In this document: positions 13,899 to 29,608 of the stretch, piece by piece | Position numbering within the stretch: position 1 is the stretch's first letter | Layout: the number at the start of each line of letters is the position of its first letter | From: Haemophilus sp. C1 | GTDB lineage: Bacteria > Pseudomonadota > Gammaproteobacteria > Enterobacterales > Pasteurellaceae | NCBI RefSeq assembly: GCF_001276515.1 | Contig: NZ_LDVZ01000007.1 | Span: 1-64,000, forward strand | Length of the DNA stretch: 64,000 nucleotides | Reading direction: 5' to 3' | The notes under the pieces: model-generated | The model's database searches: none | The model's input: the letters and a program-made list of their open reading frames with translations, nothing else | What the model was told of the DNA's origin: nothing | Position numbers and translations under genes: made by a program

Positions 13899-13917
13899 TG
13901 TGGTATTTAAACTAACA
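13899..13917 (-). promoter_or_regulatory. Candidate Ogr-binding dyad, late promoter PF
   Basis: TTGT-N13-ACAA: TGT at 13899-13901 and ACA at 13915-13917, centred at 13908. If it lies at -55 as in P2, transcription starts near 13853, about 24 bases before FI. A loose -10 (within TACAAAATAG) is at the right distance. The N13 spacing is shared with the sites at 19322 and 29590. Confidence 0.65.
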
Positions 13918-13946
13918 AAGTTCACGGTGTATTGGAGAAAATAAAC

Positions 13947-13968
13947 AACGGCAGGATTACCCGCCGTT
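13947..13968 (-). terminator. Terminator of the V-G operon
   Basis: AACGGC / GCCGTT with additional inner GG/CC pairing, followed on the minus strand by GTTTATTTT. It lies between the 93-residue gene and the FI promoter, closing the V-to-G transcript. Confidence 0.6.
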
Positions 13969-13984
13969 TTAATTTGAAAAACAA

Positions 13985-14266
13985 TTACTGTATTTTTGAT
14001 AACTTATTAAATCGTGCATCGTGCTGTTTGCCTGAAATCTCACTTTCATAAGCTGTTTTGCAGTGATTGCGGTCAAAGAAAATGCCGTTGATGAAACGAT
14101 ATAACACTCGCCAGCGTTTTTTCGGGTTCTCGGCTAATATTGCCCCCCAATAAGTGCGACTGGAGAGGGTTTCATCTGCGGCGCCGCCTGTGAGGGCGTT
14201 AAACAGTTGGTCTATGGCGATAATCACGTGATAGCCATAGCGTGTTAATTTGCGTTTAATTGCCAT
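13985..14266 (-). CDS. Uncharacterised phage protein after the fibre genes
   Basis: A 93-residue basic protein (MAIKRKLTRYGYHVIIAID, then NPKKRWRVLYRFINGIFFDRNHCKTAYESE). It overlaps the end of the fibre assembly gene by 22 bases and is the last gene before a terminator. The Y-E-S-E and N-H-C-K segments look conserved rather than random, but I do not recognise a family. Confidence 0.6.
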   Translation of the reverse strand: MAIKRKLTRYGYHVIIAIDQLFNALTGGAADETLSSRTYWGAILAENPKKRWRVLYRFINGIFFDRNHCKTAYESEISGKQHDARFNKLSKIQ

Positions 14267-14859
14267 TGCTCAATCTCCTGTTCAAGTGAGGTTAATTCCT
14301 CGGGTGTTTTTAAAGCGAGCAAACGGTCTTCAAATGCCTGACGTTGCCCAATGATGATGCCAATCACCACAGCAAACTGAGCAGATTTCTCAATCACTTT
14401 TTCAATGAGTATTTCGAGCGGCACACCACGATTTTGGGCGATTTGTGAAAGCATCGGTGTCGGTGTGTTGTGGTCGGCTTGCCACGCGAGAGCCTCTTTT
14501 TCTTGACGGTAAAAACTTTCAATTTCCGTCTGTGGATAGCCCGCCAGTAATCCATTTTTAAGTTGGTCGGCTTTGTCCGCTAACTTATTGAGTAATCCTT
14601 CTTTTCGTTGTGCAAAAAGTGCGGTTTGTTTTTCGGCTGAAATTTCCCACGTAAGTGTGTCAAGATTTAACTCGTGTGCCGCACTGGGTTGGGGGTCAAT
14701 TAATACAGGATTGCCTGTTTTATCTACGATGATTTGCTTGCCTTGAGATTGTCCATTAAGTAGCTCAATATATTTATCTTGGCTAATTTCCACCGCACTT
14801 TCGGGTACAAAACCGCCGTCTGCGTCATCAAAAAAGCCATTTTTGTAATAGATTGTCAT
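14245..14859 (-). CDS. G: Tail fibre assembly protein gpG
   Basis: A 204-residue chaperone of the phage tail fibre assembly type: MTIYYKNGFFDDADG at the start, VEISQDKYIELLNGQSQGK, then NLDTLTWEI and a helical C-terminal half. It folds or attaches the fibre made by the gene directly upstream. I start it at 14859, overlapping the fibre stop, because GGGAG lies at the right distance there; an earlier Met adds nine residues. Confidence 0.82.
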   Translation of the reverse strand: MTIYYKNGFFDDADGGFVPESAVEISQDKYIELLNGQSQGKQIIVDKTGNPVLIDPQPSAAHELNLDTLTWEISAEKQTALFAQRKEGLLNKLADKADQLKNGLLAGYPQTEIESFYRQEKEALAWQADHNTPTPMLSQIAQNRGVPLEILIEKVIEKSAQFAVVIGIIIGQRQAFEDRLLALKTPEELTSLEQEIEQWQLNAN

Positions 14860-16874
14860 TATTTCCATCTCCCAATAGTCATCCAATCTGCAGCCCCTAA
14901 ATACCAGCTTGTTACTGTCGCTGTTGTGTTCGTTTTGGATTGCATAAATACCCAGTTATATTCTCCCTTACTGCTTGCCCTTGATTCGTATCGTTCTGTA
15001 ATAAAACATCGATACTCTTTATCTACATATGCAATCGGCAGCACGATATCTGTATGCACAGTAGTACCGCCTCGAGTAAAAACAATTAAACCTGTTTGAA
15101 TCATCGTCCCATCAGGATATTTTCTAATTTCAACGTTACCGATTTTTTGATAGGTAATTACAGCATTAATAATTTGAGAGGTAGCCTGATTAAAATCAGT
15201 AATCTGACTAGCCGTGTGCGTATGATTACGGTCTGCTTTGCCTTGTAATTCTTGTGCTAATCGCCCTGCATCAAGTGCACCAGCATTAGTTACCTCGCCG
15301 TGGGATTTAATCCAAAAGACCACATCATCAAAACTATTAAGGGCTTTGATGCATAATTTGAGGATTAATGATTTGGGGCGAGTTTCATCGCCACCTGTTG
15401 CCATTTGAGAGGTATCTTTTGGGAACACAAAGCCATTATCTCCATCTGCATTGTCATAACCAAGGGTGCTCCACAAATCTGAAGACTGAGCAAATGTTGT
15501 ATAATCAAAATACGAATTATTCCGTCCTTGACTTGAGTGATTAAACCAAGAATCGTAGTCTATCGGTACTCTATGCACATGTCGTTTTAACTCATCCTCT
15601 TGCGTTTGCCCTACAAATAGCCCATTTCCCGCATTACGCAAAAATCTATCTGCTACTTTAGGCACACTAGCAATTGAGCCATATTTACCGACTAAGTGAC
15701 GATATAACTCAGGGTAACGTTGCTCGGTAACTTGTGTGGCAATCTCATCAAAGGCAATCCAGCCAGTGGGAATATTATCCACGGCAAAATAAGCCGTCAT
15801 GCCTACATCGCTACGGGGTAAATCAGGGAGTTTGTTGCTGTTGCCTAACACCTGATACAAATCAGGAAAGGTTTGTTGATTAAAGGTCGAGCCGTCAGCA
15901 CGTAAAAAACCGACGGGATTGGTCACCGCGCGTGGAAATGATACTACTGCACCTAAAGGCAAGCCTTTTTTAGCAGCCTCGCCCACCGCATATTCAGATG
16001 CAAATTTGTTTTTATCTGTTCCATCTGTTTTATGCGATATTGGCAAAATACCTGGCTCTGTTTCTGTTGCTGATTTTGCTGTCCATTTTGTATTAGCAAG
16101 ATCTTCGGCTTCAACTGCTTTGTCATAAGTGGCTTTAACCGCGGCACTGGTTGCGACGGTGTCTGCGCTATTGCTATTTACGGCAGAGGATTTTTTGCTA
16201 TTGGGGATGTAATTAGAGAGATTGCGTGTAAGCGCATCAATAAATGCTTTTAGTAACTTAATCGATTTCGGGGTGGCAGCCATATCTTCGGATTCCGACT
16301 CATATCCCGAATAGAGTTGGGTTATCCCTTGTTGTGTGGTGTTTGCCTTGGCTATTTCGTGGGTGTGTCCGCTTTCATCAAATCCATTTTGCGTTGTGGC
16401 AGTAATGGTTTTTGGTGCCATTTGTTGGCGGGTGACAAAAATCACACTGTTATCAATGGATAATGTTACCGCACTAGAGGATTCTACTTTTAAGATCATC
16501 CGCAATACTTGGACTTTACCACTGCCACTACTTTCTGTTGGTTTAAAACTTTCAGGGCAGTTTGCGTAGGCAATGAGTTTATTTTGTGAGTCAAATACGC
16601 CCATTTCTCTTATGTAAAAACCGCCGACATTTTCAGGGATGGTTAATTCAACGATCACCTGTTTATTATTGCGAGGGTCGAGAGAGACGGCACTGACTGG
16701 TGCAATGTGCGTTTGATGTACGAGAGCTGTTGCGCTCGCCGTTGGTGTGACCGCCTGTCCATTGCCATCACCCACAGCAAATTTGGCGAGTTGCAACGGT
16801 TGCCCTTGGCTTAATGCGTGAGCGATAGCATGTGTTCCGTAGTCGGTTAATATTGCAAAATATTGTGATGCCAT
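14859..16874 (-). CDS. H: Tail fibre protein gpH
   Basis: A 671-residue fibre, the likely host-recognition protein. The N-terminal 150 residues are P2 gpH / tail-collar-fibre-like (FAILTDYGTHAIAHALSQG, then VGGFYIREMGVFD). The middle carries tail-collar repeats (LPLGAVVSFPRAVTNPVGFLR, and a second at NIPTGWIAFDE). The C-terminus (residues 585-671) is gp53-like, with DGTMIQTG and a WMTIGRW end, and probably forms the receptor-binding tip. It lies in the order V-W-J-I-H-G of P2. Confidence 0.9.
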   Translation of the reverse strand: MASQYFAILTDYGTHAIAHALSQGQPLQLAKFAVGDGNGQAVTPTASATALVHQTHIAPVSAVSLDPRNNKQVIVELTIPENVGGFYIREMGVFDSQNKLIAYANCPESFKPTESSGSGKVQVLRMILKVESSSAVTLSIDNSVIFVTRQQMAPKTITATTQNGFDESGHTHEIAKANTTQQGITQLYSGYESESEDMAATPKSIKLLKAFIDALTRNLSNYIPNSKKSSAVNSNSADTVATSAAVKATYDKAVEAEDLANTKWTAKSATETEPGILPISHKTDGTDKNKFASEYAVGEAAKKGLPLGAVVSFPRAVTNPVGFLRADGSTFNQQTFPDLYQVLGNSNKLPDLPRSDVGMTAYFAVDNIPTGWIAFDEIATQVTEQRYPELYRHLVGKYGSIASVPKVADRFLRNAGNGLFVGQTQEDELKRHVHRVPIDYDSWFNHSSQGRNNSYFDYTTFAQSSDLWSTLGYDNADGDNGFVFPKDTSQMATGGDETRPKSLILKLCIKALNSFDDVVFWIKSHGEVTNAGALDAGRLAQELQGKADRNHTHTASQITDFNQATSQIINAVITYQKIGNVEIRKYPDGTMIQTGLIVFTRGGTTVHTDIVLPIAYVDKEYRCFITERYESRASSKGEYNWVFMQSKTNTTATVTSWYLGAADWMTIGRWK

Positions 16875-16882
16875 AAATATTC

Positions 16883-17422
16883 CTATTGTGGATATATAGT
16901 GATGATTTCACCGCATTGTTGACCAATAAAGGTTCTGAGTGCCCCTGTTGGTGAGATTGCGATAGCGAGCTGATTGAGATGTCTTGAGACGGGTTTTACA
17001 TCATTAATAAGCCGCACTAGTTCGTTATAGGTTTGTTCATTCAAGCCACTTTCAGAAACTTCTACGGTTAAGCTAAATGTTCCTGGTGTGCCTTGTGGGT
17101 TGGTTTGAAACCATTCTTTCAGTTCAATGAGATAGCCTATTGGCTTAACCACACGTTTTACTGCACCAATTGTGCCTTTGTGTTTGTGTACAAAATAAGA
17201 TTGTTTAATCGCAATGCGTTTAACTTCTTCTGTCCAGTTTTCATCCCATTTATCCACCGAAAATGCCCAGGCTAAATAAGGCAGTAATTCGGTGGGGCAG
17301 CGTTCAGGGTTGATTAAATCTGCAATAACAATGGGATTTTCTACCGCACTTTTTAGAATTTCTGCCGCACGTTTTTCTAATGGGGTTGAGCCTATCGGCA
17401 GTAAATGATTAGTAATCATCAC
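16883..17422 (-). CDS. I: Baseplate protein gpI
   Basis: A 179-residue P2 gpI-like baseplate wedge protein (LLPIGSTPLEKRAAEILKSA, then LLPYLAWAFSVDKWDENW). It overlaps the end of J by 14 bases. Length matches P2 I (176). It joins V, W and J in the baseplate. Confidence 0.92.
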   Translation of the reverse strand: MMITNHLLPIGSTPLEKRAAEILKSAVENPIVIADLINPERCPTELLPYLAWAFSVDKWDENWTEEVKRIAIKQSYFVHKHKGTIGAVKRVVKPIGYLIELKEWFQTNPQGTPGTFSLTVEVSESGLNEQTYNELVRLINDVKPVSRHLNQLAIAISPTGALRTFIGQQCGEIITIYPQ

Positions 17423-18323
17423 TTGTCACGATCTCCAAATTAATTGCCGTGCAGTAGGCTGATTTTGAACTTGGTAGCACAATATCGGCGGTAGGAGAGA
17501 TAAGTTCTACCCGTTGTACACCTTCTAAGTGTAATGCGGCATAAATACCTGATAGGCTAATGTCTCGCCCTAAACGGTGTTTTTCTTTGGTGTAAGCCGT
17601 CAATTTTTTTAATGCGGCGGCTTTGATGGGTTCGTATTCAGGACCACGATAAAGATGTAATTTGGCTCGGATTTCGTAGGATTGGATTACCGCACTTTGG
17701 ACAATAACGCGGTCGCCAATAGGGCGGATGTCATCATCGTTAAGTTTTGCTCGAACCACATTTAAAAGACTTTCCTCTGCCTCGCCTTGACCATTACGGC
17801 TTAAAATCGTCACGGTAACATTAGCGGGCTGAGGGGAAACCACCGACACATCTGCAACATCAGGGTGTGCAGAGAGCGCGTGGAAGATATAAGCAGAGCG
17901 AGGACCCGCTACAGAAAGCCCCTCAAAGGCTAATTGCGTGCGCAATCTTAATGAGGTGTCATCTTCTAAAATTTCGGGGATTTTAGGCGTAACATTATTA
18001 TTCGCCTCTTGAATGACTTGTCTTTTTACATTGTAATTGGCGGCAATCACATCCAAATCTGAACCGCTTGCATAGGCTAACATTGTGGCTTTTGCCGCGT
18101 TATTGATGCGGTTTCTTTCCATCAACTGTAAGTAAACCACTTCTTGTAATAATTTAGTGATAGGTTCACTTTCTAAACTTAATCGTGCTTGCCAAAATGC
18201 TCTTTCATCTTGTGGGAAAAGCGCGATAAATTCCGCTTTTCTGTCTGCGAGCAAACTTTCAAAATCTAAATCTTCTAGCACTTTCGGTGCATCTAGTTTT
18301 GATAAATCGACTAATTCGCTCAT
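17409..18323 (-). CDS. J: Baseplate protein gpJ
   Basis: A 304-residue P2 gpJ-like baseplate wedge protein of the baseplate J family (LLQEVVYLQLMERNRINNAA, ASGSDLDVIAANYNVKR, DTSLRLRTQLAFEG). It overlaps W by 4 bases and I by 14. Length matches P2 J (302). Confidence 0.93.
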   Translation of the reverse strand: MSELVDLSKLDAPKVLEDLDFESLLADRKAEFIALFPQDERAFWQARLSLESEPITKLLQEVVYLQLMERNRINNAAKATMLAYASGSDLDVIAANYNVKRQVIQEANNNVTPKIPEILEDDTSLRLRTQLAFEGLSVAGPRSAYIFHALSAHPDVADVSVVSPQPANVTVTILSRNGQGEAEESLLNVVRAKLNDDDIRPIGDRVIVQSAVIQSYEIRAKLHLYRGPEYEPIKAAALKKLTAYTKEKHRLGRDISLSGIYAALHLEGVQRVELISPTADIVLPSSKSAYCTAINLEIVTSDDY

Positions 18324-18658
18324 TGTTTATGTCCTAAAAATAGTTTTTCGTTTCGCATTTCTTGGTTGTCTTTACGACTGCGTGCGACATAGCTTGCCAC
18401 AATACCACCTTCAACCAACTCTGGTTTAAATTGTGTGATCTGTACGCGTGGTTCCCAGCGATTAATTGCGGTGACGGCACAAGCTGCGAGTTGTAATAAC
18501 AATGTGTGGCTAATTGGTCGGTCTATTAGCATTGGAATTAAACTGCCATATTCACGCCGCTGAATGCGCGAGCCAACTGGCGTTAGCAAAATATCGGCAA
18601 TGGATTGTTTAATGTGGTCGCTTTCGTTTTTTAATGTTTCGCCAGTGTATCGATTCAT
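18320..18658 (-). CDS. W: Baseplate protein gpW
   Basis: A 112-residue P2 gpW / T4 gp25-like baseplate protein (MNRYTGETL, ILLTPVGSRIQRREYGSLIP). The E-Y-G-S-x-I-P segment is typical of the family. The start at 18658 lies one base after the V stop and gives the family length (P2 W, 115); a longer frame runs into V and is unlikely. Confidence 0.9.
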   Translation of the reverse strand: MNRYTGETLKNESDHIKQSIADILLTPVGSRIQRREYGSLIPMLIDRPISHTLLLQLAACAVTAINRWEPRVQITQFKPELVEGGIVASYVARSRKDNQEMRNEKLFLGHKQ

Positions 18659-18659
18659 G

Positions 18660-19259
18660 CTATGCCTTTGCGTTAGAGGTTCGTTGGCCATCGCCTTGTT
18701 CAACGTGAACATGGTTTTGTAAACTAATCGCTCCACCTTTAATATCACCGCTTGCGGTCACACTGCCTTGTGTGCTGATATTGCCTTTTGTGGTGCTTGT
18801 GCCTGTGGTTGATAAAGAACCGTCAATATTCACATTGCCTTTGATATTGATAGTGGGGCAGTCAATGTCAATTTGATTAGCGGCAGTAATACTGGCGGTT
18901 TTGATGCCTGTGACAACCAATGCGCCACTTGATTGGTTGTAAGTGATTTTGGCTCCGTCAGCAAATTCAATGACGTGTTCATCGGCTGAATGGCTAGGGC
19001 TGTTTTGTGTGTAAAGCCCAACTAATATGCAGGCAGTAGTAAATTCACCGCTAACCGATAACATCACACATTGTTCGCCCTCCGTAGGCGGCGACCATGT
19101 TTTAGTTGTTCCCGCACGAGGTGTGATGAATGGTAAAAACTCTGTCAGAATATCACCGCTCTTTACACGAGCACGTGCGGTGGCGTAATTCACTTCAGCG
19201 ATTACCCCAAAGCGGATAATATTGTCGAGTTTTCGTTGTAATTCAGCAGACATAGGCAT
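18660..19259 (-). CDS. V: Baseplate spike protein gpV
   Basis: A 199-residue P2 gpV-like spike. The N-terminal OB-fold region (about residues 10-95) contains GVIAEVNYATARARVKSGD and WSPPTEGEQCVMLS. The C-terminal part has short repeats (TTGTSTTKGNISTQGS, then ITAANQIDIDCPTINIKGN) that form the beta-helical tip. The trimer pierces the outer membrane. It is the first gene of the V-W-J-I-H-G operon, with an Ogr-type dyad upstream. Confidence 0.92.
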   Translation of the reverse strand: MPMSAELQRKLDNIIRFGVIAEVNYATARARVKSGDILTEFLPFITPRAGTTKTWSPPTEGEQCVMLSVSGEFTTACILVGLYTQNSPSHSADEHVIEFADGAKITYNQSSGALVVTGIKTASITAANQIDIDCPTINIKGNVNIDGSLSTTGTSTTKGNISTQGSVTASGDIKGGAISLQNHVHVEQGDGQRTSNAKA

Positions 19260-19321
19260 TCACAGTTAAAGAAAATGCCTTATTGTTGGCAATATTGTGC
19301 GGTGTGGCGAGTGGGGGCGAG

Positions 19322-19340
19322 TGTGGAATAGTAGGTAACA
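19322..19340 (-). promoter_or_regulatory. Candidate Ogr-binding dyad, late promoter PV
   Basis: TGT-N13-ACA: TGT at 19322-19324 and ACA at 19338-19340, centred at 19331. At -55 it predicts a start near 19276, 17 bases upstream of V. ACAATA (minus strand, 19281-19286) is a possible -10. It lies just beyond the terminator of the inserted two-gene cassette. Confidence 0.65.
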
Positions 19341-19343
19341 AAA

Positions 19344-19365
19344 AAGCAAGTCAGGCTACTTGCTT
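19344..19365 (-). terminator. Terminator of the inserted cassette
   Basis: AAGCAAGT / ACTTGCTT (19344-19351 with 19358-19365) is followed on the minus strand by a T-rich run. It overlaps the stop of the 143-residue gene and separates the cassette from the V promoter. Confidence 0.7.
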
Positions 19366-19795
19366 ATTCTGTTCGATCAATGATTGGATTTGGAGTATCC
19401 CATGCACGAGGGAATGGCTCATGTTGTGGTGAGAACGCTATAATCACAATATGTTCATCTGATATTTTTTGGTAATGAATTACAGGTCCAGATGTTTCTC
19501 CGTTCAAATTCATTTTTAGGTCGCTCATTGGGCAATAGCTAGTGCTATTAGCATAAGGCCCGCAATGATAATGCCAAATATTATTTTCTTGATAAACTTC
19601 GGTATTTGGAATGTCATTGAGATTGTCATCAATCCAAGATGGTTTATTTTTACCTCTTAATCGTTTTCCTTGTTCAATGGATTGCATAAAATCAAAGATG
19701 AGCTTCAATTCTTCATCTGACATCGCTTGAATGTCTTTAAAAAAGGGCGTGTTTAAACGCCCTTCTTTGAATTGTTTCGATAACTCAATCTTCAT
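19364..19795 (-). CDS. Uncharacterised cassette protein (143 aa)
   Basis: I do not recognise this protein. The N-terminal half is helical and basic (MKIELSKQFKEGRLN, then LIFDFMQSIEQGKRLRGKNK). The C-terminal half is beta-rich with an H-Y-H-C-G-P-Y segment and ends with VIIAFSPQHEPFPRAW. The layout recalls small RNase toxins of the RelE/YafO kind, but no catalytic set is clear. It lies 8 bases after the 185-residue gene and ends at its own terminator. Confidence 0.55.
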   Translation of the reverse strand: MKIELSKQFKEGRLNTPFFKDIQAMSDEELKLIFDFMQSIEQGKRLRGKNKPSWIDDNLNDIPNTEVYQENNIWHYHCGPYANSTSYCPMSDLKMNLNGETSGPVIHYQKISDEHIVIIAFSPQHEPFPRAWDTPNPIIDRTE

Positions 19796-19803
19796 TTGTT
19801 ATC

Positions 19804-20361
19804 CTACATCATCACTGCTTTTTTGAAATCATCAAAAGAATGTGACGATTTGTAGGTATACCCTGCATCTTCAGATTTGTGATAAACGCGTGATAAAACC
19901 ACTTCATCTGATTGTTGTTTATATTTTTCTGATTTCATCATATTGCAAAGTGTATGCATTTTATTGCTGAATGATTGTAGTGTTGTTGATAATTCTGGAG
20001 ATTTATTGTTAGCTATAATATTGTGAGCTAAACCATCATATTTGTTAATTTCATTTTCCAGTCTTTGAACATCATTTAAATCAATATAACTTAATGATTC
20101 TGGCGTAATTGACGCAATAACAAAGTCAGTGATAGCAGAAACAGCTTTCACCATATCAATAATCTTTTCTATATCTTGTTGATTGAGCGATTTGTTTTCA
20201 TCCGCTTTAACACTGAAAATATTTACTGTGTGTGTTGAGTGATGAACAGGATGATTCATTGCCAATGGCGCAATAAATAACGCAGACATCGCTGCGACTT
20301 TTAATTGCTTAAAAATTGGCGCAAAACTTTCAAAAATAGGATTTAATGATAGATTTGTCAT
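19804..20361 (-). CDS. Uncharacterised membrane-anchored cassette protein (185 aa)
   Basis: No family is recognised. One hydrophobic segment (about residues 22-36, LKVAAMSALFIAPLAM) follows a short N-terminus and could be a membrane anchor or signal. The rest is hydrophilic and helical, rich in Ser, Asn and Lys. A near-consensus sigma-70 promoter lies upstream. With the next gene it forms a two-gene unit inserted between T and V, suggesting a lysogen-expressed trait such as exclusion or defence. Confidence 0.6.
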   Translation of the reverse strand: MTNLSLNPIFESFAPIFKQLKVAAMSALFIAPLAMNHPVHHSTHTVNIFSVKADENKSLNQQDIEKIIDMVKAVSAITDFVIASITPESLSYIDLNDVQRLENEINKYDGLAHNIIANNKSPELSTTLQSFSNKMHTLCNMMKSEKYKQQSDEVVLSRVYHKSEDAGYTYKSSHSFDDFKKAVMM

Positions 20362-20408
20362 AAGTCACCAAAGAATAAAAGTTTGCGAAGTTTACAATTT
20401 TTTAAAGA

Positions 20409-20437: not shown

Positions 20438-20441
20438 CTAA

Positions 20442-20461: not shown

Positions 20462-20462
20462 A

Positions 20463-23329
20463 TTATGCTCTATCCCACATGGAACTCCGCGCTCTTGCTT
20501 GGCGTTGGTTTTCGATGCGTTGTATTTCTTTTGCCACTTGCTGTGCAATGGCTCGTTCGTCCATGCCTTGTGCAGCATTGACAGTAATATTTACGCTCAT
20601 TGGTTGGCTGGTTTGTGCAATCATTGGACGAGCAGAAATGGGCGCACGAGTATCAACTTGCACAGGGGCGGCAGTTCGCTGATACCTAAACCGCCCGCAA
20701 TAAGTGCTTGTTTGCCGTAATTAAGGGCGTTGAGTGTATTGACGCCAAGGCGTGATGTGGCTTCTTTGGTCATCACATATTCGCCACCGTGAACAATGCC
20801 CATTGGTTGATATTTGCCGCCATTGCCAGTGTAACCGCCGTTGGAAAAGCCTGTATTTGCTGCCATCTTAGCTGTTTCGCTGAGTTGCTCTGCATGTTTT
20901 TTGGGTATAAGTGTATTAGCGATACTACTGACACTCGGCATATGATCTATTACCCATTGAATAGCATTTTGTAATAGCTCCAAAGGTTTTAGAGCTAAAT
21001 CAATACCTGCTGCTATCCATTCGCCAAATTTTTTACCTGCACTGGCTGCAGCTTCTAAATCTTCTTTAGTACTTTGTACTGGAGACAATAAATCAGTAAA
21101 CCATTTTACCGCTTTTTCAATCCAGCCAACGACCACACCAAATGCAGTGCCAAGCGGTTGGAATTTTTCAAGGACGGGGGCGAGACCTGATTTTAAGCCC
21201 TCCCAAAAACCGCCGAAAAATGACCGCACTTTATCCCAATATCGATAAATCATCACACCTGCCGCGACAAATGTAGCAGCGAGTAAACCTATTGGAGAAA
21301 GGAGAAAACCTATGATTGACGTTAATCCCATAAAGAGCATTCTAATAGGTGCAAAAGCAATACGAAGTATTGTTTTTAGTCCATTTAGCCAAAATGAGAG
21401 GTGTCTCATCTTTTTAATGAGTTTAACAAAGACACTCGGCATTTTTTTCAATCCGCCATAAAACATGACAGTTCCTGTTTTAGCTGAATTGAGGGTGGTT
21501 TTATAAGAAAATAAATGTTTATTTGCCTTTAAACTTTCAACAGAGACTTTTTTTAATGATTGACTTAATAAATGATTAATGCCTGTAAAACGCCCGACAC
21601 CTAATAAAATGCGTGCAACAGGATAAAACAGAAAACTAAATGCCATACTTAATGCACCTAATGCTGTAATACCTCCTGCAATTAATACACTCCATTTAAC
21701 AATTTGTCGAGTAAGTTCAGGATTCGCTTTTATCCATTCGTTCACTTTTCGCACTATTTCGGTTACCGACTGTATTGCGGTTCGAATATCATCTGAAATA
21801 GTATCATAGATCGCAATGCCTACGGATTCACGCGCAGACTCTAGATTTTTTATATCCCCCATTAAGTTATCCGCCATAACTTGCGCGACTTGCTCTGCAC
21901 GACCTGCGGAATTTTTTAATTTTTCCGTCATTTCTTGAATGCCGTGGATGCCTGCCTGTCCAACTAATTCAACCATAGCTGTCGCAGCTTCTGTACCGAA
22001 AATGTCCTTGTAATAAGCCATTTTGTCGCCAGATCCCATTTTGGCAGTTTTCTTTTCTACATCAACTAAAATGTCGGTAAGCGCACGCATATTGCCACGA
22101 CTATCTTTTGCGGATACGCCTAATTTTTTCAATGCTTTTGCTGCCGCTTTAGGAGGAGCGGAAAGTCTGAGCATGGCAGAACGTAATGATGTCCCTGCTT
22201 GAGTGCCTTTAATCCCTACGTTGCCTAACAACCCTACCATTGCTGACATGGTTTCAAAGTCTTGACCTGTTGCCGTGGCAATTGGACCTAAATATTTCAT
22301 TGTATCGCCTAAGCCTTCTAAGGTTGTGTTGGATCCACTAAATGTTGCAGTAAGCACATCTGCTACACGCCCCATTTCATCGGCAGGGATTTTAAAGCCA
22401 GAAGAAATATCTGATGAAATATCTGAAACTCGCCCCATTTCGATGCCTGCGGCTTTTGTCATTGCTAAAATAGCAGGCATTGATTTTTCGATTTGGTCTG
22501 CATTGAATCCCGCCATCGCCAAATAACCTTGACCTTGTGCGACTTCTCCTGATGTAAAGGATGTTGTTGCACCGAGATGAATCCCTTGTTGGCGCAGCCG
22601 TGCAAGTTGTTCCGCTTGCTTTGGATCAGTTTTATTTAACCCAGTTAAAGCTTGCACCTTAGAAAAATCTTGTTCAAAATCTAATGCAGGTTTAAGCATT
22701 ATACCAGTGAGCGCATTGCCTGCTGTTCCTGCGATCATGGCAGATTGCCCAAATCCCTTTAATTGCTCACTTTTCGTTTTTAAATTATCTACGCTATTTC
22801 GATAAGCTAGGTTTCTTGCTTGTCGCTGTTGCAGTTTTTTCATGGCTGCATTTTGTTTTTCAATGGCGGCCGTGGATTGACTAAGCTGTTGTTTAAGTTT
22901 TTCCTGACTTTCCTTAAATTTTGATGTGTTAAAGCCCCCAAGTTTTAATTCTTGGCGGAGTTTATTTAATTGTTTACGCTGATTTTCTTGCACTTGTGCC
23001 ATTTTATGCGCTGCTTTATGTGCTGCTTTATGTGCTTCTGTGACTTGGCGTTTAAGTGCGGCTGTCGGTGCGGCAGTATTGCGTAGTTGTTCGGCTAATT
23101 TTTTTGCTTTTTCTCGTGCTTCAACTAATTTCTGATTATTTTGCTGCAGTGAGTTTTGCAAATTTTTAAATGAATCAGCGGTTTTATTTTGTTGTTTTAG
23201 TTTATTGAGTTCATTGGTCGCACCTTTTACTTTAGATTGCAAATTATCCATTTGTTTTTGCACACCTTTTAAAGGGGCTGTGAGTTTATCAACTGCACCT
23301 AGAATTACTTTAAGCTCTAAATTTTTCAT
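20463..23329 (-). pseudogene. T: Tape measure protein gpT, frameshifted near the 3' end
   Basis: A tail tape measure of about 955 residues, which sets tail length. Residues 1-190 are coiled coil. A TP901-type core follows (about 195-530; AGFNADQIEKSMPAILAMTKAAG), then hydrophobic segments near 555, 670 and 690. The frame from 23329 leaves the conserved sequence after GISELPP and ends at 20621. The true C-terminus (VQVDTRAPISARP to SSMWDRA) continues in another frame to 20463. One extra C in the CCCC run at 20665-20668 (G on the plus strand) restores it. Confidence 0.88.
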
Positions 23330-23400
23330 TTTTACCCACTTTTTCTTGACATTTTAGGAATGAGGAACAAATAATGAACAAACTTAACAGGGAGAGAACG

Positions 23401-23712
23401 ATGGAAATTTTTGTTTTGCTCATTGGTTTGCCAATTATTGTTGGTTTACTTATTGCATTTGGTACTGCAGTATTAGCCGCATTTAGTTATATTTTTGTTG
23501 GCGCATTATCTTTAGCGATTAATTTCTGGTATATCACGTTAGCAATAATGCTTGTTTTGCTTGCACCTCTTATTTATTTAAATAGTTGGCTATTTTGGCT
23601 TTTGGCTGCAATCGTTATTTTCTTTACTGTTGCTTGGTTTTTTGGTGGAGATACCGAACAAATCAAAGCAGAAATTGAACGTAAACGTATTGCTAAAGAG
23701 CATAAATTGTAA
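23401..23712 (+). CDS. Small membrane protein, plus-strand insertion between S and T
   Basis: A 103-residue protein made almost entirely of hydrophobic segments (about residues 2-35, 42-60 and 65-85) with a charged tail (EIERKRIAKEHKL). I start it at 23401, where AGGGAGAG precedes the ATG; an ATG at 23374 would add nine residues. A TTGACA at 23348-23353 could be a -35. It runs against the late genes, so it is an accessory gene with its own expression. The function is unknown. Confidence 0.65.
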   Translation: MEIFVLLIGLPIIVGLLIAFGTAVLAAFSYIFVGALSLAINFWYITLAIMLVLLAPLIYLNSWLFWLLAAIVIFFTVAWFFGGDTEQIKAEIERKRIAKEHKL

Positions 23713-23722
23713 ATTAATCTAA

Positions 23723-24193
23723 TTAAAATTCTTTACCCGCTATAGCTCTAAGCACAAATCTTTCAATCATTTCAATATCTTCTTCTGTAAAGCCCAGTAA
23801 TTCACGCTGGGCATATAGCACCTTGAAATCTTTATATTTAGATGGGCTAGAATGTAAGCCATATTGATGCACTGCAGCAATCGCAGCATCTCCACCATAA
23901 AAACCGAGTGAAATTCCTTCTTCTTGGTAACGTAATTTCATGTGGGCTGGCGTGACCAATTTTCTAAACATTAATTGGCGTTTAATTCGCCCTTTCTTTT
24001 TGCCAAATTGTTTTCTTGGTTTACGAGGTTCATAAGGTGAACCGTCAGGATTTTGTTGGGCTTTGATTCTTCGGCGTTGATTTCTTGCAAGTTCTCGACC
24101 TATTTGTTGATAAAGTAATCGTCTGCGAGGTTTACTGATATTATTTAATAAGGCAGCCAAAGCGACTTTAATTTTCTGAACATCATCACTCAT
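23723..24193 (-). CDS. S: Tail completion protein gpS
   Basis: A 156-residue protein of the P2 gpS / phage virion morphogenesis family (RRRLLYQQIGRELARNQRRR, QQNPDGSPYEPRKPR, AAVHQYG). It works with R at the tail-head junction. It overlaps R by 4 bases. The match to P2 in length is good. Confidence 0.9.
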   Translation of the reverse strand: MSDDVQKIKVALAALLNNISKPRRRLLYQQIGRELARNQRRRIKAQQNPDGSPYEPRKPRKQFGKKKGRIKRQLMFRKLVTPAHMKLRYQEEGISLGFYGGDAAIAAVHQYGLHSSPSKYKDFKVLYAQRELLGFTEEDIEMIERFVLRAIAGKEF

Positions 24194-24666
24194 ATTTTCT
24201 GTATATCACCCTCAAAAATTAATGATTCCCAGTTTTCCAAATAGACTTTTACTCGGGTTGGTTCGTCCCATACTGGTTCTTTTGCGTAATGGATCTGCAC
24301 GTTATTACCGTCTTTTTTCGACACAACACGTTCAGTGAGTTGGATTTCGAAACTAATATCTGCGGTGTTGTTATTGTTGTAATCCACCTGGAATTTAAAT
24401 GCGTTCTCTCGAATTTGTGGATTTTCTAATATTTCAGGTTGATTTGTGCGGAGATAAGCCATCATTGGCACAATCAAGGTGGCAATATCGCCTGCATAAT
24501 CAGTCACTACAACATTGAGTGTATAACGATATTCAAAACTAAATGATGCGGCACCTGTTGCGACGATTTGCCCACCGTCCACATAAAGTTGTAGATGGTC
24601 GGGATTTTTTACAAAATCGGGATGGCTTTGTTCAAGTATTTTGCGCAGTTGGTTGGGCTTTTTCAT
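24190..24666 (-). CDS. R: Tail completion protein gpR
   Basis: A 158-residue P2 gpR-like protein (MKKPNQLRKILEQ, then LQLYVDGGQIVATGAASFSF and LNVVVTDYAGDIATLIVP). I start it at 24666, overlapping the stop of the upstream zinc-finger gene, because this aligns with the P2 R start; the frame is open 17 codons further back. Confidence 0.9.
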   Translation of the reverse strand: MKKPNQLRKILEQSHPDFVKNPDHLQLYVDGGQIVATGAASFSFEYRYTLNVVVTDYAGDIATLIVPMMAYLRTNQPEILENPQIRENAFKFQVDYNNNNTADISFEIQLTERVVSKKDGNNVQIHYAKEPVWDEPTRVKVYLENWESLIFEGDIQKI

Positions 24667-24878
24667 TTTCGAAAATTCCGTTGTTGCATTTCGAATCTTT
24701 GTTGGCAAGTCAAGCAACGTGTTACACCTTGAATCATTTGTCTGCGTTTTTCTGGGATGGGGGCATCACAATCTTCACAATAAAGGCGGCTTACTGCTTT
24801 AAAAGTGCGGTGTTTTTTCAGGGCGATTTCACGTTGCATTTCTTCAAGCTGTTGTGCTCGGTCGAATTGATCTGTCAT
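24663..24878 (-). CDS. TraR/DksA-type zinc-finger protein
   Basis: A 71-residue protein with the C4 finger C34-x2-C37 ... C55-x2-C58 of the DksA/TraR family (RLYCEDCDAPIPEKRRQ, RCLTCQQ). Short phage members can bind the RNA polymerase secondary channel. It lies between Rz1 and R and overlaps both, as in many P2-like phages. Whether it alters host stringent-type regulation is unknown. Confidence 0.85.
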   Translation of the reverse strand: MTDQFDRAQQLEEMQREIALKKHRTFKAVSRLYCEDCDAPIPEKRRQMIQGVTRCLTCQQRFEMQQRNFRK

Positions 24879-25138
24879 GGCTGTTCCTTTTTATTAAATT
24901 CATCCATGCATTTTTTTAAACTCGAGTTTTCAATGATGCATAAATCAAGGTGGTGCTGTGTCTGTAAATAGGCTTCAGCTAATTCGCCATTGGTGCGAAT
25001 TTGTGGCGAATACGCGCTGCACTCCGTGGTTTGCGGGCAAAGAATCGGTGATTTAATGACTTCCTGCTGAGTTGAGCACGCGTTTAACATCATCAGGCAA
25101 AGGGCGGTCAGCCCAATCTTGGTTTGATTTAAGTACAT
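24875..25138 (-). CDS. Rz1-like spanin lipoprotein
   Basis: An 87-residue lipoprotein with a signal ending LMMLNAC at the lipobox, followed by STQQEV. It overlaps the 3' end of the Rz-like gene in another frame, the usual nested spanin arrangement (P2 lysB/lysC). It should be the outer-membrane subunit that fuses the membranes in the last step of lysis. Confidence 0.82.
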   Translation of the reverse strand: MYLNQTKIGLTALCLMMLNACSTQQEVIKSPILCPQTTECSAYSPQIRTNGELAEAYLQTQHHLDLCIIENSSLKKCMDEFNKKEQP

Positions 25139-25403
25139 TTTTTAAATCCTGTGTTTGTTGATTTTGGTTTGCTTTGAGGTTGTTTACGGCTTGGATAAGC
25201 TGTGCTTGCTGTTCGGCAAAATTTTGAACGCTATGATTTAACTCAATGTAAGAGTTTTGCCATTTTAGTTTTAGCTGTTCTTCTTTGAGCATTTCTTTTC
25301 GCCAATAATTAGCCTCAAATCCCAGAAAAATAATGAGGAGTACAAGCAGTATTGGCCCGATAAGTAAAATGCCTCGTTCTTTGGCGGTTAAGAAATTAAA
25401 CAT
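25053..25403 (-). CDS. Rz-like spanin (inner membrane)
   Basis: A 116-residue protein with an N-terminal membrane span (about residues 13-30, ILLIGPILLVLLIIFLGF) and a coiled-coil periplasmic region (LKLKWQNSYIELNHSVQNF, LIQAVNNLKANQNQQTQDL). It starts 16 bases inside the end of the endolysin gene and contains the start of Rz1. Confidence 0.82.
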   Translation of the reverse strand: MFNFLTAKERGILLIGPILLVLLIIFLGFEANYWRKEMLKEEQLKLKWQNSYIELNHSVQNFAEQQAQLIQAVNNLKANQNQQTQDLKNVLKSNQDWADRPLPDDVKRVLNSAGSH

Positions 25404-25906
25404 AGGTTTTTCTCCTTTTGACGGCGTTCAATTAATCCTTTTAGCGGTTTTCCTGCTGCGTAAATCCAACGCTCAAACTGACTGCACATAGCTTTGTTGT
25501 AGCCTTGGCGTGCCATTTTAAAAAGTGAGCTATTTTTTAATTTGCCACATCCTACGTTAAAGGTGATGGACACTAAGGCATCAAATGCGCCTTGTGGCAT
25601 GGTTTGCCCGTTGGCATATTGATTAACGCATTTTTCTGATTGTTTAATGCCCTTTACGTATAACTCGGCAATTTCTTGTAAGGTGTAAATTTTATTTCGG
25701 TCGATTTTTTCAACGGCATCGGTTATGCCTATGCCGACTGTTAAAACATCAGCAGGGCATTGATAGGGCTGTTTCATGCAACCCTCGGCATTGCCAATCA
25801 GTAACAAGCCTTTTTCTGATGTTCGAATTTCATTCCCATGAGTGGCAATCACCAGTCCAACAACGGCAGATATGGCGCAGATGTATTTGGCAGAACGTTT
25901 AATCAT
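25388..25906 (-). CDS. lys: SAR-type endolysin (GH24 lysozyme)
   Basis: A 172-residue lysozyme. Residues 8-24 (YICAISAVVGLVIATHG) are a weakly hydrophobic, Ala/Gly/Ser-rich signal-anchor-release segment. The catalytic triad fits the E-8-(D/C)-5-T pattern: E41, C50 and T56, so a Cys replaces the usual Asp. It is released from the membrane when the holin collapses the potential. It overlaps the holin by 8 bases and Rz by 16. Confidence 0.88.
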   Translation of the reverse strand: MIKRSAKYICAISAVVGLVIATHGNEIRTSEKGLLLIGNAEGCMKQPYQCPADVLTVGIGITDAVEKIDRNKIYTLQEIAELYVKGIKQSEKCVNQYANGQTMPQGAFDALVSITFNVGCGKLKNSSLFKMARQGYNKAMCSQFERWIYAAGKPLKGLIERRQKEKNLCLIS

Positions 25907-26120
25907 GATGATGGATCCGTTGTTCGAGTTCTTTTTCTTTTAATTCAAAATCTTTTTTCTTGTAATACCAATTCACAAGAAAGGTGGCGACACCAATCAC
26001 AATACCTGTAACCGATGCGACATCAGCCCAATTTACATTTGAGAACATATCGGCAATGCGTCCAATCAAAAAGGCGAATATTCCTGATATGTAAGATGCT
26101 TTTGATGGTGTGTCGTGCAT
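25899..26120 (-). CDS. hol: HP1-type holin
   Basis: A 73-residue holin from the ATG at 26120 (GGAG upstream): MHDTPSKASYISGIFAFLIG, a hydrophobic segment, a second span (VASVTGIVIGVATFLVNWYY) and a charged tail ending RIHHHD. It resembles the HP1 holin family. It lies between X and the endolysin, matching P2 gene order (X-Y-K). Confidence 0.82.
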   Translation of the reverse strand: MHDTPSKASYISGIFAFLIGRIADMFSNVNWADVASVTGIVIGVATFLVNWYYKKKDFELKEKELEQRIHHHD

Positions 26121-26121
26121 A

Positions 26122-26331
26122 TCAGCTCCAAAGTTGAATTGTGTCATTTGCTACACTGATTTTTTCTGTATCGGCATCTGGCAATATGACAGGAGTGCCA
26201 ATGGGAATAATGGGCTTATCCATTAAATGCGGATTGAGTTCGCATGTTATTTCGAGCAAGCCTTCACTTCGTCCAAAATGGCGATAAAGGATGGCATCTA
26301 AATTGTCATTTTGTTGTGCGTAAACTTGCAT
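26122..26331 (-). CDS. X: Tail protein gpX
   Basis: A 69-residue P2 gpX-like protein with a LysM-like fold (VYAQQNDNLDAILYRHFGRSEG, NPHLMDKPIIPIGTPVILPD). The start overlaps the L stop by one base. Length matches P2 X (67). Confidence 0.9.
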   Translation of the reverse strand: MQVYAQQNDNLDAILYRHFGRSEGLLEITCELNPHLMDKPIIPIGTPVILPDADTEKISVANDTIQLWS

Positions 26332-26837
26332 TAGATTAACTCCGCATCGACGCGTTTTCTGCCCAATATGTCGCTAATCGCAAAGCGAGCATCACGGCGT
26401 AATTCATCTATGCTGTCTTTGAGTTGCGCCATTTTCTTTTCGCCATCGTTGGTGCTGTCGTAGCTTGCATAGCGTTCATAGAGATTTGCCAGTGCCAAGC
26501 AACTTACCGCACGTTTATAACGATAAATCAGCACGCTTTCGCCATTGATTGATGGGGCAGTGATCTGTTCTAAACTGTCGCGTTTGCTTTGTGTTTTAAA
26601 CGTGGAGAGTTCCGCATTGACGCTCGCCATTCCTTCAATTAAGGCATCTTGTAAACGTTGTGTGGTAATGGTGCCGTCTGCACGATATTGATTGCGAAAT
26701 TGGGAAAGTGACATATCGGGGAAGAAACCGTCATTACTGATAATGTCATCTGACGTATCGTAATCATTTAACTGTTGCTGCACTTCGCCCATTTCATAAT
26801 CAGGGGCAAGTTTGACTGATATTGCGCCGTCGCTCAT
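26331..26837 (-). CDS. L: Head completion protein gpL
   Basis: A 168-residue P2 gpL-like head completion protein (FPDMSLSQFRNQYRADGTIT, RYKRAVSCLALANLYERYAS). It closes the filled head before tail joining. Length matches P2 L (169). A 124-base gap separates it from M. Confidence 0.9.
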   Translation of the reverse strand: MSDGAISVKLAPDYEMGEVQQQLNDYDTSDDIISNDGFFPDMSLSQFRNQYRADGTITTQRLQDALIEGMASVNAELSTFKTQSKRDSLEQITAPSINGESVLIYRYKRAVSCLALANLYERYASYDSTNDGEKKMAQLKDSIDELRRDARFAISDILGRKRVDAELI

Positions 26838-26961
26838 TGATTTACCCTTATAAAAAAAGTCGGGTGAGGATTAAATTAAGCACGGCCAATAAATCCGTCA
26901 GAATTTGACCGCACTTTTAATCCGCCCGACGGCTGCGTGGTTTGCTCTTTACCAAAACCGA

Positions 26962-27612
26962 TTATTCATCGGCTTTGTTTAATTGCTTACGTAATTTTTT
27001 AATATCGCCTTTCACGCCAATTTTCTGATCTAAACCCAAAGCACGTTCTAAATATGCCAGTGCTTGTTCAGGGTTCTTTTCAACCAATAACAAGCCCAAT
27101 TCACGCAATAATCGCGCACGGCTTTCATCGGGCATATCGCAATCAGCGGTGATGCGTTGAACTTGCTCTAAGTAAGCCACTTCGAACGGTTTATTGGCGG
27201 CTTGTGCGGCTTTGGCTTGGTCGGCAAATTCTTCTGCCAACAAGGTGCCAAGTGTTCGGGTAAATGGCTCGGGTAAGCGTAAATCATGAAATACGGCATA
27301 ATCGGCAATCTGTAAGGCGAGATGATATTCGCCACAGTCAATCGCCCACACGCACCATGTCATTAAGACATTATCTTGTTTGCCACTTCCGACCGATAAC
27401 GCCCCTTCAATCCATGGTAGATAGTCAGGCAAAATTTGCTTTTTAAATGCGCCTTTGCGTTCCGTTGATTGGATGTTTTTCAAATCCTTTCGATGTCTCG
27501 CAAGAATACGGCACATTTTTTCATATTCCGTAAAATCGCTTAGATCTTCGGTTTCTGCCGCATTAGCAATAGCGGCAGAAACTTCCAGAAAATGGCGTTT
27601 GGTTGGGCGCAT
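26962..27612 (-). CDS. M: Terminase small subunit gpM
   Basis: A 216-residue P2 gpM-like terminase endonuclease subunit (LPDYLPWIEGALSVGSGKQD, TWCVWAIDCGEYHLALQIADYA). It cuts at cos together with the large subunit. The C-terminal part has TPR-like helices (NPEQALAYLERALGLDQ). It lies 11 bases after N. Confidence 0.9.
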   Translation of the reverse strand: MRPTKRHFLEVSAAIANAAETEDLSDFTEYEKMCRILARHRKDLKNIQSTERKGAFKKQILPDYLPWIEGALSVGSGKQDNVLMTWCVWAIDCGEYHLALQIADYAVFHDLRLPEPFTRTLGTLLAEEFADQAKAAQAANKPFEVAYLEQVQRITADCDMPDESRARLLRELGLLLVEKNPEQALAYLERALGLDQKIGVKGDIKKLRKQLNKADE

Positions 27613-27623
27613 TATTGATTCCG

Positions 27624-28673
27624 TTATGCGGCCACAGGCGAAATAGGCGCAGGTGCCTCAAGAATGGTGATATTTTTCGCCATGGCGACTGCCTCGTAGT
27701 TTTCCACAACATAGGCTTCGTTTGACGATAAATAATCTTCCACACGATTGCGTTCAGGCACATCTTTTAAGTGACGGCGCACTTTGCCTTCCTGCACGTA
27801 GATTGACAAGTTGTCTAGCGATGTGACTAACACTGTGCCTTTCGGGAAGAATGGAACAGATACGGCTTGTAACCCGCCCACACGTTTTTGGCTAATGACG
27901 GTATCGCCTGCCAAAATTTCACTTGGTTTTTCTTGGTTGATTAATGGGAAATATTTATCGGCTAATAAGTCGCTACCCATAATTGCAACCAGTTTAGTGT
28001 CGTCACGATATTGTGCTGGGATGAAATCTTCTTTTAATGCAAAAACAAGGGCATTAAGGTTTTTATAGGTTTTACCTGCACCGATTTCGATTTTGCCACT
28101 GCTTTTTTCAATTTCTTTTAATACACGGGCTTTGGCTTTATCTTCGATTTGGACTAACCAACCCTTATTCACATCTTGCAATAATGGATGTTCAGTGCGG
28201 TTTGTGGTTGCGGCTGCACTTGTGCCATTCCAACCGATCATGATACGGTCTAATGCAATGCGTTCTGCTTTGAGTTTGCCAATGCGTGCAGCGAAATCAG
28301 GGAATTTTGCCCAACTGTCTAAGGTTGCATAATTTAAATGCGTGTCAAAGTTGGTTTGTTCGCAAGAATAGGTGTTTTCTTGCAAGCTGTGAATGTCTGT
28401 GGTTTCACGTGCTTTAGTGTTAGTGTCGGTGCGGCTTGCCACAGGAGAAAGCACGCCTAAACGCAATGCGGAACCTTTCATTTCTTGCACCATGACGACA
28501 TTGATGCGTTTCAAGAAATCAGAACTTTCAAGCACAGCATTTTCTAATTTTTGTTGAATAGTTGGCTCAACGGTAAACTGACCGCCATTTGCGATAAAAG
28601 CAACATCTTCGCCGTTATCTTGTGCAACACCAGCTACATAAGCATTAAATTTTTGTTTGGTAAATTTATTCAT
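27624..28673 (-). CDS. N: Major capsid protein gpN
   Basis: A 349-residue P2 gpN-like capsid protein, HK97-fold family (FTKQKFNAYVAGVAQDNG, SSDFLKRINVVMVQEMKG, ENTYSCEQTNFDTHLNYATLD). P2 N is 357 residues and is cleaved at the N-terminus by the O protease. It lies between O and M as in P2. Confidence 0.95.
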   Translation of the reverse strand: MNKFTKQKFNAYVAGVAQDNGEDVAFIANGGQFTVEPTIQQKLENAVLESSDFLKRINVVMVQEMKGSALRLGVLSPVASRTDTNTKARETTDIHSLQENTYSCEQTNFDTHLNYATLDSWAKFPDFAARIGKLKAERIALDRIMIGWNGTSAAATTNRTEHPLLQDVNKGWLVQIEDKAKARVLKEIEKSSGKIEIGAGKTYKNLNALVFALKEDFIPAQYRDDTKLVAIMGSDLLADKYFPLINQEKPSEILAGDTVISQKRVGGLQAVSVPFFPKGTVLVTSLDNLSIYVQEGKVRRHLKDVPERNRVEDYLSSNEAYVVENYEAVAMAKNITILEAPAPISPVAA

Positions 28674-28694
28674 TTGGTTTTTTCCTAAGATAAA

Positions 28695-29510
28695 TTAAAA
28701 GAAGCGGCCATCAGTTTCAGGTTGTTCACCGTAAACTAAAGGGCGAGGATTTTCGGGTTCAACCGGCTTTTTGAGTTCTGCAAAGGTTGCTTGGATTTCC
28801 GCATTACCTGCTTTCATTTCTTCGATTTCGGCTTGTTGTTTGGCTAAATCGTCAGAAAGTGCGGTTAATTTTTCCAAGGTTTCTTTGGTTTGTTCCGCTA
28901 AAAGCTCAATGGCTTGTGTTTGATCAGCAAAGCGTTCATCGTCTGATTTTTCTTTTTTCGCAAATAATCCTTTAATTTTTTCAAAGATGCTTTGTGTTTC
29001 TTCCACAAATTCCAATTCAGTTTCAATAGCAGCAGTGAAAAGGTTTTCTGATTTTTCTTTGCGGTTATTAAGTGGATTCGCACTTGCGCCAGCAGAAAAG
29101 ACCAACATTTCGGTGCCAAGGCTTGCTGGATTATCAGTTACAGCTAAACCAACTAAGTAAGCCTCGCCAGTGTCAGCAAAATTCGGATCACACTCAATAG
29201 AGGTGTAGATTTTTTGACGCTCTTTATTCAGTTTGATTAAATCGTCTGTTGGATCGATTTTAGCTAATAACTGCAATTTACCTTCTTCGGTTTCTTCTGT
29301 TTTTAAGGCTAAAACATCCCCATAACATTTAGCGTGAGGTTCATCGCTTTCATACCAACGTAATTTGATATGTTCTAGGTTAATGCGTGCACCGTATTTT
29401 TTTGGATCATAATTTGCCGCCATTTGTTCAATCCAAGTACGATTGATTGAGCGACCGTCAGTAGTTGCACCTTCTGTTGCGACTACAAACCATTTTGAAG
29501 TTTTTGCCAT
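28695..29510 (-). CDS. O: Capsid scaffold and protease gpO
   Basis: A 271-residue P2 gpO-like protein. The N-terminal serine protease shows D18, H47 (INLEHIK) and S104 (IYTSIE), matching the P2 triad positions closely. Residues 190-245 are a scaffold coiled coil (LAEQTKETLEKLTALSDDL). It directs capsid assembly and then cleaves itself and N. It is divergent from P with an Ogr-type site between them. Confidence 0.92.
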   Translation of the reverse strand: MAKTSKWFVVATEGATTDGRSINRTWIEQMAANYDPKKYGARINLEHIKLRWYESDEPHAKCYGDVLALKTEETEEGKLQLLAKIDPTDDLIKLNKERQKIYTSIECDPNFADTGEAYLVGLAVTDNPASLGTEMLVFSAGASANPLNNRKEKSENLFTAAIETELEFVEETQSIFEKIKGLFAKKEKSDDERFADQTQAIELLAEQTKETLEKLTALSDDLAKQQAEIEEMKAGNAEIQATFAELKKPVEPENPRPLVYGEQPETDGRFF

Positions 29511-29589
29511 TGCTTATCCTTTGTTTGGTTTGATTCAATGATTATCGCTATTCTGAAAGGTTTAATTTTGGTGGTCTATGAGTTGCTTT

Positions 29590-29608
29590 TGTTGTATGTC
29601 GATTCACA
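29590..29608. promoter_or_regulatory. Candidate Ogr-binding dyad shared by late promoters PO and PP
   Basis: TTTTGT-N13-ACAGAG: TGT at 29590-29592 and ACA at 29606-29608, centred at 29599. Placed at -55 it predicts starts near 29544 toward O and near 29654 toward P. TATTAT at 29643-29648 is an ideal -10 for P, and TAGCGAT on the minus strand (29544-29550) is a fair one for O. One symmetric site can serve both directions. Confidence 0.7.

Follow-up and report, generated by a model that had tools for sequence, protein, structure and literature searches.

The closest described systems for the control of late genes in P2-like prophages are those of phage P2 itself and of Mannheimia phage PHL101, and both were compared with a prophage in a 64,000 nucleotide stretch of Haemophilus sp. 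C1 (contig NZ_LDVZ01000007.1, positions 1 to 64,000; hereafter the window), in which three TGT-N13-ACA dyads lie upstream of late genes. The P2 record (NC_001895) annotates a single activator site at 3057–3087 for both pO (start 3127) and pP (start 3016) and further sites for pV and pF, the centre of each site being 55–58 bases from the annotated start. The late sites of P2 and of Stenotrophomonas phage Smp131 are given as TGT-N12-ACA in one report (PMC3931495), and a sequence-only reading of the window made before this analysis had named the same motif for P2. This holds in part: two P2 sites (PO/PP and PF) fit the 12-base spacing with a mismatch as TGT-N12-CCA, but none of the three annotated sites contains an exact TGT-N12-ACA, and that of PV reads TGT-N11-ACA or TGT-N14-ACA. 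In PHL101 (NC_008201, Baylorvirus) 19-base sites annotated as 'possible activator protein' are present at O/P, V and FI and all are TGT-N13-ACA, whilst a fourth site so annotated (9623–9637) is not an N13 dyad and lies in a stretch without any TGT-N8..18-ACA. In the passages of the literature examined, the original PHL101 paper not being among these, no description of late operators or of ogr in Haemophilus-type PHL101-like prophages was seen.

The window resembles P2 in having three sites for four late promoters (PP, PO, PV and PF), one of them common to PO and PP, with the same genes downstream. It is unlike P2 in the spacing of the dyad (13 rather than approximately 12), in the position of the tape measure gene T upstream of V, in the location of the candidate activator gene in an early cluster rather than after D, and in the body and second cysteine pair of the encoded protein when set against P2 Ogr. 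PHL101 shares with the window both the 13-base spacing and the placement of T ahead of V, although the 13 bases inside its dyads are not those of the window. The sequence-only reading had placed dyads at three centres upstream of FI and V and between O and P. A motif scan confirmed an exact TGT-N13-ACA at each, and the genes were identified by Pfam; the proposal that the sites mark the late promoters is supported:

13899–13917, minus strand: TGT-N13-ACA dyad centred at 13908, predicted late operator for FI (tail sheath) and its operon (motif, relatives, model)
19322–19340, minus strand: TGT-N13-ACA dyad centred at 19331, predicted late operator for V and its operon (motif, relatives, model)
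29590–29608, no strand assigned: predicted divergent late operator common to O and P, TGT-N13-ACA, centre 29599 (motif, relatives, model, mirrored -10)

The dyads are conserved and rigid, that between O and P is flanked by mirrored -10 sequences, and together with their promoter context the sites are unique in the window. Very likely they are the operators at which an Ogr-type zinc-ribbon activator encoded by the phage, most probably the product of 6022–6303, would drive four late operons with the O/P dyad serving both sides; binding, the identity of the activator and the starts are inferred, as is polymerase recruitment, by analogy with P2. That these are operators of the P2 late-control kind, with an N13 spacing common to several non-enterobacterial P2-like phages, is well supported.

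Conservation was assessed by searching with the O protein in 140 genomes of the family of Haemophilus aegyptius (the genome behind locus L009), which gave matches in 46 genomes at 51 places. The 33 strongest matches, the window and five IMG/VR records made up a set of 39 loci; the window prophage is itself also present as IMG/VR record 2671181078 (L001). A separate scan of genome contigs yielded only two loci, and a class-wide O-gene survey (13 of 369 genomes with prophages, nine above the cut-off) was not used. For each gene 220 bases upstream were scanned, genes with less than 40% identity or matched only beyond residue 25 being dropped. TGT-N13-ACA was present upstream of O in 37 of 39 loci, of V in 33 of 34 and of FI in 23 of 24, against shuffle expectations of 1.8, 1.7 and 0.9 respectively, whilst TGT-N12-ACA was found in none of these regions (0/39, 0/34 and 0/24). 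Two of the four misses are explained by one-mismatch sites, AGT-N13-ACA at O in G096 and TGT-N13-ACT at V in G104. When the sequences ahead of O, V and FI were aligned (seven, seven and five rows including the window), the half-sites are kept and the inner bases vary, with the spacing constant at 13. The consensus of the sites is TGT(T/G)A...YCACA.

By frequency alone the motif does not stand out. The 64 kb contain 11 matches to TGT-N13-ACA and 16 to TGT-N12-ACA, with 20 of each expected from shuffles, and although eight of the 11 N13 matches fall in the first 32.5 kb, on the prophage side, five of these eight are away from the late sites. The bare count is too weak for use alone and is misleading as the refutation that the sequence-only reading had proposed. 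The sites are taken as real operators because orthologous positions are conserved, even though the bare motif is not enriched. A position weight matrix that takes in the flank and -10 does single them out. It spanned -12 to +50 and was built from 55 non-redundant sites of other prophages (93 reduced to 55), window and window-like sites excluded. The top three scores of the 64 kb were those of V (51.5 bits), FI (39.8 bits) and O (39.6 bits); fourth, at 8.7 bits, came the face of the O/P site that looks towards P, and the best other place reached 3.1 bits. A matrix of the dyad alone separated less well, a chromosomal place at 33948 scoring 13.2 bits, above the O site at 12.8; this TGT-N13-ACA lies inside an anmK-like gene without promoter context. 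Applied to the other prophages, whose sites were partly in the training set, the full matrix recovered the labelled sites again and scored six unlabelled places above 8 bits, namely the two one-mismatch sites and one place each in G052, G059, G090 and G104. That in G059, at 8753 of the oriented locus, scores 28.1 bits about 1.7 kb ahead of the tape-measure match and suggests an added late transcription unit. No extra operator for the displaced gene T was found in the window by the matrix scan.

The protein proposed to read these sites is encoded on the early side of the prophage:

6022–6303, minus strand: probable Ogr-type late activator, a zinc-ribbon protein of 93–94 residues with CX2C-X22-CX2C and RTS, in the leftward early/replication cluster (profiles, relatives)

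Its description as Ogr-type in the sequence-only reading is plausible, resting on a match to phrog_603, the family of P2 Ogr, at 50.4 bits (5.4e-13, residues 3–92), where P2 Ogr itself scores 101.5 bits. A profile of the protein and two homologues aligned with P2-type Ogr over the CxxC-RTS stretch (E 5.7e-5) and nearly end to end with PHL101-type proteins (E 1.1e-6). Compared directly by profile, PHL101-type proteins and P2 Ogr did not match significantly (E 0.016), and their alignment was shifted. With the whole 6022 protein as query there was no match in other related records, which instead carry diverged CxxC-RTS zinc-ribbon proteins in the equivalent early cluster. A profile built from 11 such zinc-ribbon proteins of relatives matched 22 of the 39 loci; among loci with FI and sufficient sequence, all but one of 23 gave a match. 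Ten further loci, G043 and nine of partial sequence, gave none. All three of the relatives' proteins that were compared with phrog families matched phrog_5516 ('unknown function'), to which the probable PHL101 activator ORF38 belongs, the Mannheimia member being annotated only as hypothetical. By eye the activator-like proteins of N13 prophages fall into at least three sequence classes. The 6022 protein is thus probably an Ogr relative and phrog_5516 probably its usual counterpart in relatives, so that, as judged from these comparisons, the operator is constant across relatives while the activator varies.

Several observations weigh against this reading. The 6022 protein scores 22.6 bits (E 1.1e-4) against Pfam Ogr_Delta (PF04606), under the cut-off of 26.3; it scores 27.6 bits against the Pfam PaaD zinc ribbon (cut-off 27). 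By hand count its cysteines are CX2C-X22-CX2C, the second pair being CX2C and not the CX4C of Ogr/Delta, and PHL101-type proteins are linked to P2 Ogr through window-type proteins only, not directly. The activator profile found nothing in G094 despite three good N13 sites, nor in G072, G073, G087, G129, G109 and G052, each with 40 kb of sequence and no FI match. No site was found within 220 bases upstream of O in G129 or of FI in G104, and the P face of the O/P site reaches only its 8.7 bits with a matrix trained on the other faces.

An alternative that we consider unlikely is that the dyads are late operators read by a different zinc-ribbon protein of phage or host, such as the DksA/TraR-type product of 24663–24878 or the Ogr of a resident helper prophage. 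In its favour, a DksA-like protein is present in all five related records compared, and the 6022 protein has only four homologues listed in the protein database, including one with 99% identity, although relatives conserve the sites. Against this, a CxxC-RTS zinc-ribbon protein accompanies nearly every prophage with FI and sufficient sequence, in the equivalent early cluster where compared, the window-type and PHL101-type proteins align along their length, the 6022 protein matches the phrog_603 family of P2 Ogr, and P2 has a separate DksA-type gene in addition to ogr.

The arrangement of the promoters bears on how each dyad is used. Many of the 39 prophages are closely related, and sites from these loci and PHL101 were hence reduced to less than 85% identity over 201 bases, leaving 24 of 38 for O, 28 of 34 for V and 20 of 24 for FI. 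Counted from the dyad centre, a -10-like hexamer occupies +44 to +49, where every non-redundant member has A at +45 and T at +49, and a weaker -35-like position at +21 to +26 gives a 17-base spacer. The pattern xAxxAT occurs at offset 44 in 23/24 O, 28/28 V and 18/20 FI sites, the mean count at other offsets being below one (0.65 on the P side of O/P). Assuming seven bases after the -10, starts are predicted about +56 from the centre, in keeping with the distance of about 55 bases given by the sequence-only reading and with the annotated P2 starts. On the opposite side of the dyad the mirrored xAxxAT is found in 20 of 24 O/P sites as compared with two of 28 at V and one of 20 at FI, the pattern to be expected of two promoters on the O/P dyad and one on each of the others. 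The corresponding window elements are:

13882–13887, minus strand: FI promoter, weak -35-like hexamer TACCAC (position conserved in relatives)
13859–13864, minus strand: FI promoter, -10-like hexamer CAAAAT, with the start predicted at about 13852 (promoter alignment)
19305–19310, minus strand: V promoter, weak -35-like hexamer TCGCCA (hexamer position)
19282–19287, minus strand: V promoter, -10-like hexamer AACAAT, with the start predicted at about 19275 (promoter alignment)
29573–29578, minus strand: O promoter, -35-like hexamer TAGACC (hexamer position)
29550–29555, minus strand: O promoter, -10-like hexamer CAGAAT, with the start predicted at about 29543 (promoter alignment)
29620–29625, plus strand: P promoter, -35-like hexamer AAGACT (hexamer position)
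29643–29648, plus strand: P promoter, -10-like hexamer TATTAT, with the start predicted at about 29655 (promoter alignment)

That a single O/P dyad serves both operons, as the sequence-only reading had proposed, is very probable, and the arrangement is one known from P2. It would be quite improbable for the dyad to drive O alone with P expressed from an independent promoter, although the low score of the P face is what such an arrangement would give, and P sits 0.9–2.7 kb from O in six prophages, five of which have the N13 site. The P-side -10 is, however, at the exact mirror position in most non-redundant O/P sites, whereas V and FI seldom have one on their unused side, and the single O/P site of P2 is annotated for both promoters. 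In the five prophages with 1.2–2.7 kb inserted before P (G004 and G007 being near-identical) the N13 site stays beside O with the P-side -35 and -10 adjoining, so that the P-side -10 is kept. In four of the five the stretch from O to P holds no second N13 match; the exception is G138, with a match 721 bases from P, a further point for an independent promoter. The insertions in G002, G004, G133 and G138 hold open reading frames directed towards O (Bro-N-like and HicB-like by eye), and the transcript for P in these prophages would begin with a long antisense leader.

In the mechanism favoured here, the activator would bind the dyad as a twofold-symmetric complex and recruit the sigma70 RNA polymerase of the host to a promoter that has a poor -35, a 17-base spacer and a -10 lying 44–49 bases off centre, transcription beginning about 56 bases from the dyad centre. 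One face of the FI and V dyads and both faces of the O/P dyad would be used, such that three operators would govern four late operons, PQ, ONML..., VWJIHG and FI-FII... (named by P2 order). Late genes would follow early ones because the activator gene sits in the early leftward cluster.

Sites for the cyclic AMP receptor protein (CRP) or another host regulator are a very improbable explanation. The half-sites TGTGA/TCACA within the consensus look like those of CRP, which are separated by six bases, but the gap here is nine, and high-scoring sites lie nearly all at phage late promoters in the sequence examined, with an activator candidate present. Chance matches to a short motif, the bare form of which is no commoner in the window than in shuffles, can be dismissed given the conservation of three orthologous positions at constant spacing with 13 variable inner bases and top window scores by a wide margin.

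The sequence-only reading had also attributed N13 to a shifted specificity of the 6022 protein, and this is not supported. To compare spacings more widely, O/P regions of 23 named phages were inspected, comprising P2, PHL101, HP1, one other and 19 picked by eye to cover diverse hosts among the 60 that were listed out of 350 records. Exact N13 occurred in seven (PHL101, AP3, LPM4, KS5, FLC5, F_HA1961 and Alfacinha1), the hosts of which are Mannheimia, Burkholderia, Pseudomonas, Aeromonas and Acidovorax, and the Burkholderia phages KS5, AP3 and FLC5 are like the window in having TGT-N13-ACA ahead of O/P. Exact N12 was found in four (phi13.2, SEN8 and two Yersinia phages) and TGT-N12-CCA in another four (P2, phi7.1, SW9 and 613R3), all eight being enterobacterial. 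Neither N12 nor N13 was seen in the remaining eight (HP1, K139, Pmp6, O18P, PY3, M16-3, Kp4847-1 and phiT5282H), although Kp4847-1 and phiT5282H, both enterobacterial, have one-mismatch N13 readings. Second exact readings also occur, N10 in phi13.2 and SEN8, N11 in KS5 and N15 in FLC5 and Yersinia 31.17. KS5, in which ogr is located near the repressor and which resembles the window in this, has an Ogr with the classical CX2C-X22-CX4C, unlike the 6022 protein. Since KS5 combines CX4C with N13 the spacing does not follow the cysteine motif, and N13 as a consequence of the CX2C variant is rejected, several kinds of activator sharing this spacing. The late motif of Ralstonia phages RSA1 and RSY1 is reported as TGTTGT-N13-ACAACA (PMC5694545) and is like the window in its N13 spacing. 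Smp131 is like the window in having one site (4381–4398, both directions) for PP' and PO' but unlike it in the reported TGT-N12-ACA, whilst one of its four listed sites (PMC3931495) spans 19 bases and would be N13.

The 18 weaker O matches of the family search provided 16 O upstream regions (L148–L163) of an HP1/K139 lineage that was assigned without a tree. Here TGT-N12/13-ACA was present at O/P in one of 16, a hit that looks like chance. A different element is seen, consisting of CGG(A/T)(T/A)A half-sites that face inverted copies and frequently come as tandem pairs with a 10-base offset; it occurs in 14 of 16 loci and in K139 (L130) and HP1 (L114) but not in Pmp6 or O18P, by counts made without a shuffle control. 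A phrog_603 (Ogr) homologue lies about 3–4 kb from O on the P side in all seven genomes examined, and in four HP1/K139-type Ogr homologues RTS is replaced by RTD, RTE (two) or KTQ. This element is probably a separate late operator code. A broader proposal, for and against which we see the case as evenly balanced, is that Ogr late control has split into at least three codes (TGT-N12-MCA in enterobacterial phages, TGT-N13-ACA in PHL101-type Pasteurellaceae and several non-enterobacterial phages, and CGG(A/T)(T/A)A in the HP1/K139 lineage), with the Pasteurellaceae N13 operator frozen while the phrog_5516 and window-type activators diverged almost unrecognisably outside the zinc ribbon.

The late genes adjoining the sites in the window are:

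12645–13829, minus strand: FI, tail sheath gene (Pfam Phage_sheath_1)
18660–19259, minus strand: V, baseplate spike gene (Pfam Phage_base_V)
28695–29510, minus strand: O, capsid scaffold/protease gene (Pfam Phage_GPO)
29675–30646, plus strand: P, terminase large subunit, first of two open reading frames, frame-disrupted relative to relatives (Pfam, relatives)
31408–32418, plus strand: Q, portal gene (Pfam)

The dyad centres lie 79, 72, 89 and 76 bases from the start codons of FI, V, O and P respectively. In many prophages the left half of the V operator is, by eye, preceded directly by the T-run of a terminator-like hairpin (AAGGGCGAAAGCCCTTTTT; window 19310–19345), and the upstream operon may terminate at the V operator, where the activator would bind. 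P is split over open reading frames 29675–30646 and 30688–31398 and the tail gene D over 10136–10999 and 9806–10021, both being single frames in relatives, whilst T (20621–23329) stops early and differs from relatives in its tail sequence; several late genes of the window thus look frame-disrupted, via decay or sequencing error. Two open reading frames between T and V (19364–19795 and 19804–20361) had no NCBIfam match and no homologue in five related records compared, the first having no Pfam match either, and are probably late-region cargo genes.

These comparisons establish the likely late regulatory map for one group of P2-like prophages in Pasteurellaceae; the map is new, as is the mirrored promoter evidence. 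Also new is the proposal of phrog_5516 and window-type proteins as late activators, which suggests a function for an unannotated protein family. The one-base difference in spacing is shared by many phages and does not belong to the 6022 activator as such, and the pairs of activators and operators across lineages open the reading of sites by Ogr to direct test.

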